Source: Candidatus Aminicenantota bacterium | GTDB lineage: Bacteria; Acidobacteriota; Aminicenantia; Aminicenantales; Saccharicenantaceae | DNA length: 45,160 nucleotides | Assembly (NCBI GenBank): GCA_026393975.1 | Contig: JAPKZD010000015.1 | Coordinates: 7,250 to 52,409 of the forward strand | Direction of reading: 5' to 3' | Shown here: positions 5,854 through 8,847 of the stretch, one piece after another | Layout: every line of letters begins with the position of its first letter | Position numbering within the stretch: position 1 is the stretch's first letter | Made by a program: the position numbers and the translations under genes | Notes under the pieces: model-generated | Seen by the model: only the letters and a program-made list of their open reading frames with translations | What the model was told of the DNA's origin: nothing | Database searches by the model: none

Positions 5854-6512
5854 GGCGTTTTCCTTGCGATCTCTTTCATGGCCCGGATGACCCCGGCGGG
5901 GTCGGGGGCATCGAAAATGGCTGACCCGGCGACAACGATCTCCATACCCGCGCGGATGATGTCCTCGACGTTGTCGAGCTTGATCCCGCCGTCGACTTCG
6001 ATGGGGATCTCTCGCTTCTCGGCGCGGATCCAGTCCCTCAGCTTTCTGATCTTCTCCCGGCAGGAGGGGATGAAGGATTGTCCTCCCCAGCCGGGGTTGA
6101 CCGACATCACCAGGATGAAGTCGAGCTCTCCCAGGACTTCTTTCAAGGTGTCGATCGGTGTCGCCGGGTTGAGGGCCGCCCCGGCTTTCCGCCCCAGGCC
6201 CCGGATCATGGTCAGGTCCTTGTGGAGATGCGCCGTGGCCTCGACGTGGAGGGAGATCCAGTCGGCTCCGGCCTCGTGGAACAGGGGAACGAAGGCGCGG
6301 GGATTCTCGACCATGAGATGGACGTCGATCGGCAGGCGCGTCTCGCGGCGGATGGCGGCGACGAGCTGGGGCCCGAGCGTCAGATTGGGCACGAAGTGCC
6401 CGTCCATGATGTCGACGTGGATGAGGTCGGCCCCGGCCTTTTCGGCGAGCTTGACCGCCTCGCCGAGCTTGGCGAAATCCGCGGACAGGATCGACGGGGC
6501 GATGCGGACCAT
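5850..6512 (-). CDS. rpe: Ribulose-phosphate 3-epimerase
   Basis: Interconverts ribulose-5-phosphate and xylulose-5-phosphate in the pentose phosphate pathway. The 220-residue TIM barrel shows the family landmarks: APSILSADFAKL at the N-terminus, HVDIMDGHFVPNLTLGP with metal-binding His and Asp, DVHLMVENP, MSVNPGWGGQSF, and VDGGI near the C-terminus. The ATG at 6510-6512 shares one base with the stop of the PASTA gene (TGATG), and the stop overlaps bamD. A PASTA protein next to rpe recalls the prkC-rsgA-rpe order of Firmicutes, although no kinase is present here. Confidence 0.96.
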   Translation of the reverse strand: MVRIAPSILSADFAKLGEAVKLAEKAGADLIHVDIMDGHFVPNLTLGPQLVAAIRRETRLPIDVHLMVENPRAFVPLFHEAGADWISLHVEATAHLHKDLTMIRGLGRKAGAALNPATPIDTLKEVLGELDFILVMSVNPGWGGQSFIPSCREKIRKLRDWIRAEKREIPIEVDGGIKLDNVEDIIRAGMEIVVAGSAIFDAPDPAGVIRAMKEIARKTP

Positions 6513-7228
6513 CAGCGGCTGACCTCGAGCGAGATCCTGTTCCTCTTCTGGACCCGGAAGCCGTTGGTCGGGTCTTGTTTGACGACGATGCCGGCCGAGG
6601 CCCCCGGGTAATAGACGTAGCGGATGTCGGCGACCTTGAAACCCAGGACGTTGAGCCGGCCGATGACGCCGTCTGCCTTGAGGCCGATGAGGTCGGGCAT
6701 GATGTAACGGTCGTCGACGTCGCCCTGGCTAAGGAGCAGGCCGACCGGAAGGTTGCGTTCGACGACGGCGCCGGGCGCCGGCTTCTGATCGAGAACCCGG
6801 CCGGCGGGAAGACGCGGCGTGTGGACTTGGGTCAGCTTGCCCTTGAGAAGGCCCGCCGCCTGGAGCAGGGTCAACGTTTCGTCCAGGCTCTTGCCCGCGA
6901 GGTCCGGAACGGTAACCTTCTCGCTTCCCGAGCTCGTCACCACCCCGACGACCTTGGTCACGCGGATCCTCGACCCGGCCGCCGGGTCTTGCCGGACGAT
7001 GAGTCCCCTCTCCCAGCGGTCGCTCAACTCCGTGCCGCTCTGAGCGACGGAGAGGTCCTTCTTGGCCAGCTCTGCCCGCGCCTGGCCGACGGTCTCGCCG
7101 GTGAGGTCGGGGACGCTAACGGTCTCGCTCTTGAGGAGGACCTGGGAAAAGATGACCGCGCTCAGGAAAAACAGAATGAGGAAGAGGAGCGAAGAAAGAG
7201 CCAAATTATAGAGTAATTTCTTCGCCAT
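6512..7228 (-). CDS. Membrane-anchored PASTA-repeat protein without kinase or transpeptidase domain
   Basis: A 238-residue protein with one N-terminal membrane helix (about residues 7-29) followed only by three PASTA repeats, beginning near VSVPDLTGETVGQAR (about 38), VTVPDLAGKSLDETL (about 104) and IMPDLIGLKADGVIG (about 172). PASTA domains bind uncrosslinked peptidoglycan or lipid II and normally sit behind Ser/Thr kinases or class A/B PBPs; here the repeats stand alone. The topology puts them in the periplasm. It is the first gene of the eight-gene minus run, so it may be a cell-wall sensor or scaffold; this is inference. Confidence 0.85.
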   Translation of the reverse strand: MAKKLLYNLALSSLLFLILFFLSAVIFSQVLLKSETVSVPDLTGETVGQARAELAKKDLSVAQSGTELSDRWERGLIVRQDPAAGSRIRVTKVVGVVTSSGSEKVTVPDLAGKSLDETLTLLQAAGLLKGKLTQVHTPRLPAGRVLDQKPAPGAVVERNLPVGLLLSQGDVDDRYIMPDLIGLKADGVIGRLNVLGFKVADIRYVYYPGASAGIVVKQDPTNGFRVQKRNRISLEVSR

Positions 7229-7260
7229 GCTCGCCGTTCACGATCAGGGATTCGACAACT

Positions 7261-7290
7261 ATTATTATCATAGATTTTGAACTTAGTAAA
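7261..7290 (-). promoter_or_regulatory. Candidate promoter of the PASTA-rpe-bamD run
   Basis: On the minus strand TTTACT (7290-7285) and AATAAT (7266-7261) are separated by 18 bases, and lie about 30 bases before the PASTA ATG. The stretch is strongly AT-rich against its surroundings. TATGAT, three to six bases upstream, is an alternative -10. Both boxes deviate from consensus. Confidence 0.35.
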
Positions 7291-7375
7291 CCGACGGAAG
7301 GTTGCCGCCGCTGACGGGCCTCGGGCATCGTCTCCGTCCGCTGCGGTGATTCTTAACGCCTTCCCGGGCCGGATC

Positions 7376-7578
7376 CGGTGGGAGCGGCAGGGAGCGGACT
7401 CTTGGGAGCGACCGATAGAAGTGCGGCAGAGTGACGCAGAGCCGCACTTCTAGGAAATATCTTAAGCAAGTCCAGGAAATAAATTTCTTTTCAGATATTT
7501 ACCAGAATTGTAGCTCCGGGTACTCCGCTACAATTCTGCTGGTCGCTACGAAGACTCCGCTCCCCGCCGCTCCCTCCG
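7376..7578. repeat. Imperfect 200-bp palindrome foldable as a four-way (cloverleaf) junction
   Basis: The outer stem pairs 7380-7413 with 7541-7574 at 30 of 34 positions, and three further pairs follow a mismatch (7376-7378 with 7576-7578). Inside are three stem-loops: 7416-7427 with 7441-7452 (12 perfect pairs, 13-nt loop), 7455-7462 with 7493-7500 (8 perfect pairs, AT-rich loop) and 7503-7514 with 7527-7538 (12 perfect pairs, 12-nt loop). Every junction linker is exactly two bases (7414-7415, 7453-7454, 7501-7502, 7539-7540). The two outer hairpins are related to each other, so the element is two inverted units of about 100 bases. It may be a palindromic interspersed repeat, a non-autonomous mobile element or a structured RNA. 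Strand cannot be decided. Confidence 0.8.
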
Positions 7579-7670
7579 ACGATACGCCTCGGCCCTTTTC
7601 TTCGGCGGCTTCCTCCGGACCGAGCGTTCTCTCCGGGATGATGTCAGATTTCTGAGCTCGGGGCATACTC

Positions 7671-7704
7671 AAGGGGACATGTACTGCCGGTACGTGTCCC
7701 CCTT
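7671..7704. repeat. REP-like hairpin / possible terminator
   Basis: GGGGACATGTAC (7673-7684) pairs with GTACGTGTCCCC (7690-7701) over 12 positions with one G-T wobble and a five-base loop (TGCCG). It is flanked by AA and CTT and followed by a T-rich run (CTTCTTTATT). The compact, nearly perfect form resembles REP palindromes mobilised by Y1/RAYT transposases, but no such gene is in the window. It could also stop plus-strand readthrough before ltaE. Confidence 0.6.
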
Positions 7705-7755
7705 CTTTATTCCAGGGCGATTGCGCCATAGTCCTTGTTCACGCGAAAGAAAAAA

Positions 7756-7785
7756 CTGCCTTTTCCCACGCCTTTTAAATATAAT
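7756..7785 (+). promoter_or_regulatory. Candidate ltaE promoter
   Basis: A consensus TATAAT lies at 7780-7785, 24 bases before the ltaE ATG. The best -35 at suitable spacing is weak (CTGCCT at 7756-7761, 18-base spacer). A GGAGGA ribosome-binding site follows at 7795-7800. Confidence 0.45.
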
Positions 7786-7809
7786 TGAAACTCCGGAGGA
7801 TAGAAAAAA

Positions 7810-8847
<1,038 letters not shown>

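Follow-up and report, generated by a model that had tools for sequence, protein, structure and literature searches.

A four-way-junction sequence as the likely core of a small MITE-like element in one Candidatus Aminicenantes genus

The four-way-junction sequence at positions 7376-7578 of the window (the whole analysed stretch of 45,160 nucleotides) is likely the core of a small, non-autonomous, MITE-like transposable element that is confined to one Candidatus Aminicenantes genus. The inverted ends and the 8-bp, A/T-rich target duplications of the element in a related genome (G002) place it among the MITE-like non-autonomous transposons. An earlier note on this DNA had listed the body of a non-autonomous mobile element among its readings, and this reading is supported by the many copies, by empty orthologous sites, and by the terminal inverted repeats (TIRs) with 8-bp duplications in the relative.

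Fold and genomic setting

Base-by-base inspection confirmed an outer stem (7376-7413 with 7541-7578), for which 33 of 38 positions are paired and five are mismatched (7379/7575, 7389/7565, 7399/7555, 7404/7550, and 7406/7548); the note had the stem right but gave it as 34 positions with 30 paired. The stem encloses three perfect hairpins on the forward strand, i.e. hairpin 1 (7416-7452; 12 bp, 7416-7427/7441-7452; loop 7428-7440), which covaries among copies, hairpin 2 (7455-7500; 8 bp, 7455-7462/7493-7500; AAATATCT/AGATATTT) with a variable centre (7463-7492), and hairpin 3 (7503-7538; 12 bp, 7503-7514/7527-7538; loop 7515-7526). The hairpins of 12, 8 and 12 pairs and the four two-base linkers (7414-7415, 7453-7454, 7501-7502, and 7539-7540) were re-found base by base as the note had described them. 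Folded as RNA, 7376-7578 has a minimum free energy of -111.9 kcal/mol, compared with -66.9 +/- 4.2 kcal/mol for dinucleotide shuffles (z = -10.8), and 0 of 200 shuffles were as stable.

The setting is gene-free, as had been stated: no credible gene is predicted between the flanking genes (7229-7809) or inside the element. The neighbours are a PASTA-like gene (6512-7228, reverse strand) and a Beta_elim_lyase/threonine-aldolase-like gene (7810-8847, forward strand), both with their 5' ends towards the element.

Architecture of the element

The core (7376-7578) comprises two inverted copies of one hairpin unit of about 80 nt; the note had recognised the fold but missed both the inverted-copy nature of its halves and the extension of the repeat to about 7307-7626. 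Each unit is composed of an outer arm of about 28 nt (GGCrGGGAGCG..TCT..AGCGACC), followed by the 12-bp hairpin and then by AAATATCT. The shape of the four-way junction results from a single inverted duplication of this unit: the hairpins of the half-units are stem-loops 1 and 3, the AAATATCT tails pair to form stem-loop 2, and the arms pair to form the outer stem. The left half-unit, as delimited by alignment (7386-7465, forward strand), carries the outer arm GGCAGGGAGCGGACTCTTGGGAGCGACC, the 12-bp hairpin and AAATATCT, and the half-unit model (R1) matches at 7375-7474 on the forward strand with 110.4 bits; the right half-unit (7490-7569, reverse strand) is its inverted counterpart, bears the second type of arm (GGCGGGGAGCGGAGTCTTCGTAGCGACC) and is matched by the model at 7481-7579 on the reverse strand with 109.3 bits.

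The doublet is embedded in a composite palindromic element (7307-7626, ends approximate). To its left, the host sequence shared with relatives ends at GTTGCC (7301-7306); to its right, the repeat consensus reaches CCGAGCG (7620-7626), a limit inferred by comparison with other loci (L002, L003, L016, L022, and L040-L059). The left frame module (7317-7385, forward strand; GGGCCTCGGGCATCGTC...GCCGGATCCGGTGGGAG) is a repeat of about 40 copies, with 39 matches in the own genome of the window (E <= 0.01), and is found elsewhere as a piece of a plain foldback element of about 160 bp without the cruciform (L040, L041, L044, L045, L048, L050, and L055). The right side retains a frame remnant (7570-7626, forward strand; CTCCCTCCGACGATACGCCTCGGCCC ... 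CCTCCGGACCGAGCG), as recognised by repeat comparison. At two loci (L056 and L061), the left frame repeat is split, at an identical position, by a second repeated insert (ACGTTCG...GGGTTTATTC).

A separate hairpin, GGGGACATGTAC-TGCCG-GTACGTGTCCCC at 7673-7713, belongs to a second repeat family, which often adjoins or sits inside the palindromic elements and also neighbours several of the Y1/RAYT genes of the genus (L032, L176, L170, L172, and L184); it looks like the repetitive extragenic palindrome (REP) of an Aminicenantes RAYT.

Copies, distribution and orthologous sites

Further copies, for which the note had proposed a search, were found in the own genome and throughout the genus (13 of 13 genomes). 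The own genome contains six near-full copies (91-95% identity) and many half copies, with a total of 35 matches to the half-unit model; the halves of its doublets (identity 0.835) are hardly less diverse than its singlets (0.817), i.e. no faster, REPIN-like decay of singlets was observed. Across the genus, the half-unit model has 2-108 matches per genome, and a DNA search with the element was likewise positive in 13 of 13 genomes; none of 47 genomes of the same family and order outside the genus gave a match in the DNA search. When the GTDB genome collection was scanned with an exact pattern, 49 stretches matched; they come from five MAGs, each labelled Candidatus Aminicenantes or Acidobacteria. 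A literature search on Aminicenantes repeats, chiefly of open-access papers, retrieved no description of this element family.

The orthologous intergenic region, including both flanks, was aligned in nine other genomes, and the site is filled in G010 only and empty in the other eight (G004, G011, G012, G001, G006, G003, G002, and G009); the flank in G004 is 94.6% identical to that of the own genome, yet the site is without the element. Another locus (L024) likewise has the insert in the own genome but not in G004, some orthologous slots hold different modules in these two genomes, and one orthologous site carries the doublet in a half-deleted form.

Termini and target duplications in related genomes

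In G002, G001 and G012, the doublet is located in the centre of an inverted-repeat element. The full form in G002 is 306 bp in length with inverted ends GGYTCTTCTCCC..., and the related copies listed number about 40; most of those of full length have 89-97% identity to the query. The terminal repeat GGYTCTTCTCCCRWYTCCGGGA occurs 60 times on the forward and 56 times on the reverse strand of G002, compared with 2 and 0 for a reversed control. For 17 copies in G002, the left and right flanking 8-mers match at 0.684 versus 0.418 in permutations (z 4.8; 0/5000, p < 0.0002), the match of the flanks peaks at length 8, and the insertion 8-mers are 86% A/T, compared with 33% in the loci around them. 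Shorter forms bounded by the same ends also occur, either without the doublet (195 and 85 bp) or with one unit (187 bp). The orientation of the genes that adjoin copies showed no bias, and hence gave no further mechanistic hint.

The doublet of the window occupies a palindromic frame other than that in G002; the ends of the window frame are approximate, and fixed ends and the 8-bp duplication are seen in the G002 frame. The clean termini and the duplication thus belong to the latter frame, and the window copy may have come by another route. The same doublet is found in two different frames, and at different depths of one frame.

Four contigs of the nearly complete genome G002 (C3, C5, C9, and C12) start within or near the element, which therefore breaks assemblies. 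In G012 (contig C310; L130, 1-368), the two 97-nt flanks of a doublet agree, as inverted copies, in 96 of 97 positions up to the contig end, probably through fold-back misassembly at the palindrome.

Conservation of the hairpins and of the enclosing stem

Among 24 half-units from the own genome, pairing of the hairpin stands at 98.1%, eight of its 11 pairs show changes on both sides, and its covariation score is 0.411, compared with 0.201 +/- 0.017 for shuffles, none of which (0/500) reached the score. In a set of 34 doublets from at least eight genomes of the genus, the three inner hairpins hold 122 double-change cells versus 38.2 +/- 5.9 in shuffles (again, 0/500 reached the score), and 11 of the 12 pairs of hairpin 3 are altered on both sides. 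Read in unit orientation, G.T exceeds A.C in the hairpins (about 17 versus 4 in doublets, 7 versus 0 in half-units); since these cells are not independent, the bias carries no weight as evidence.

The outer stem of the same 34 doublets is 81.8% paired, compared with 84.3% for shuffled arms (500/500 shuffles equalled or exceeded the observed value), and contains one double-change cell versus 11.9 in shuffles; two of its positions are unpaired in 30 of the doublets, because the two arms differ in type. In 23 doublets the left arm carries GACTC and the right arm GAGTC, and in four the order is reversed, so that 27/34 are heterotypic, as counts of sequences and not of independent events. At four loci (L099, L127, L129, and L130), the types of the inner hairpins run opposite to those of the arms, as though the interior had been inverted between the arms.

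The hairpins covary and the outer stem does not, and thus the hairpins are maintained and the closed four-way junction is not; what is preserved is pairing in the hairpins and sequence in the arms, with the enclosing stem as a by-product. Among the pairings that the note had expected to be kept across copies, those of the three hairpins are kept by compensatory change, whereas the outer stem lacks covariation. The note's suggestion of a cruciform DNA target holds in part only: it agrees with the compensatory change in the three hairpins, but not as an exact four-way junction, for pairing in the enclosing stem is poorer than between shuffled arms.

Proposed mechanism and search for the mover

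The MITE-like element would be moved by a DDE-type transposase, supplied in trans, that recognises the terminal repeats and inserts the element into A/T-rich intergenic sites; the fixed-length duplication is the one feature on which this choice of enzyme class is based. The window copy might have arrived as a second palindromic frame, or might later have been built into one. The hairpins are probably kept at the DNA level, either since extruded or single-stranded hairpins would aid transposition or replication of the element, or since one arm would template correction of the other. The single half-units would represent decay products of doublets, and the enclosing stem a by-product of the inverted duplication, presumably under no pairing selection of its own.

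A MITE commonly, though not necessarily, shares its ends with an autonomous transposon able to provide the enzyme; no autonomous partner was found among the ISL3, IS256 and Y1/RAYT families and the intervals between facing TIRs. ISL3 was rejected as parent, as G006 is the one genome with its transposases, and so was IS256, whose delimitable copies end in GATGTTCGCAAC and not in the ends of the element. Two stretches of 2 kb that lie between facing TIRs in G002, considered as candidate autonomous copies, contain host-type ORFs, and no transposase was recognised in them by eye.

With this element, the uncultured phylum would gain a family of small transposons that is well delimited and was recently active (within one genome, copies reach 97% identity to the query), and in which parts held by base pairing (hairpins) contrast with parts held by sequence (arms). 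The element would also account for some of the rapid intergenic turnover within the genus, and for the assembly breaks there. The heterotypic arms, and one core reused in two frames, call for a mover beyond the families examined.

Alternative explanations

The doublet, with its two distinct arm types, might itself be the mobile or exchangeable module; an enzyme that reads arms and hairpins would then place it at the apex of various palindromic frames, and intergenic palindromes would be composed of interchangeable parts. We regard this reading as possible, though rather unlikely.

Less probable is a REPIN-like origin, with the doublet as an oversized pair of REPs whose movement, in single-stranded form, would depend on a Y1/HUH transposase (RAYT) that recognises the hairpin of each half. 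The inverted doublets with spacer, the singlets as apparent remnants, the covarying hairpins and the extragenic position match REPINs (PMC3116915), and RAYT-type (Y1) genes are present in the own genome. However, the number of Y1 genes does not follow the number of units across the genus (51 units but no Y1 gene in G004, which is 96% complete; two units but three Y1 genes in G008), no full unit lies in the flanks of the Y1 genes of the own genome, and those of relatives have no clear unit, with one weak motif match in L170; RAYT was rejected as the mover on these counts and flanks. Several Y1 genes of relatives are flanked by a different repeat, GGGGACAYGTAC. At two sites (L020/L181 and L026/L183), units in the own genome correspond to a Y1 gene at the orthologous site in a relative; since these Y1 genes carry other repeats, the sites are read as shared intergenic hot spots. 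Transposition of the IS200/IS605 type leaves no target duplication, whereas 8-bp duplications are found in G002. At the base of its hairpin, the unit consensus also lacks a GTAG or CGTC tag (tags as described in PMC3733652).

Just as doubtful is a passive module with no movement, of its own or as a TIR element, at present, for which intergenic palindromes would be built and exchanged by template-switching during replication and by gene conversion among repeats. The occurrence of the doublet in two frames, at different depths of one frame and half-deleted at an orthologous site would fit, as would the one intergenic slot with different modules in the own genome and in G004, but the fixed ends and target duplications in G002 are not a product of template-switching. 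A REPIN-like origin and template-switching may each be part of how the core changed frames.

A structured non-coding RNA, as had been listed in the note, that spread as repeats and retained its four-way-junction fold for a function, is very improbable: its very stable fold and strong hairpin covariation would be expected, but a scan of Rfam at gathering and at relaxed thresholds matched no family, the closing outer stem is without covariation and mostly mismatched at two positions (above), any transcript would read one of the inverted halves in sense and the other in antisense, many units are single, and the units are polymorphic for presence at orthologous sites of close relatives.

Comparison with known systems

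Insertion sequences of the ISL3/IS256 type generate duplications of 8-9 bp, and their ends start with GGYTCTT in some members. The G002 element resembles them in its 8-bp, A/T-rich duplication and its GG-initial ends, and differs by the lack of ISL3 transposases outside G006 and by the other ends (GATGTTCGCAAC) of delimitable IS256 copies.

REPINs are extragenic, inverted doublets with a spacer, accompanied by singlets and with covarying hairpins (PMC3116915), and REPs carry a GTAG or CGTC tag beside the hairpin (PMC3733652). The element shares the inverted doublets, the spacer, the compensatory hairpin changes, the apparent-remnant singlets and the extragenic sites; unlike REPINs, its unit is about 80 nt rather than 20-40 nt and untagged, its copy number is independent of Y1 genes, and it has an 8-bp target duplication (G002) and heterotypic arms.

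Bacterial MITEs have target duplications of 7-9 bp (QMITE2) and foldback transcripts (PMC10969869), and TIMEs are mosaic MITEs (PMC4133298). Like MITEs such as QMITE2 and Nezha, the element is at most a few hundred bp in length, gene-less, intergenic and bounded by TIRs; its A/T-rich duplication (8 bp in G002) is comparable to that of QMITE2, and its mosaic and composite forms to those of TIMEs. Unlike MITEs, it is built around two inverted copies of a hairpin-bearing unit, the hairpins of which are maintained, and its G+C-rich frames are of several sizes, with one core in two of them.
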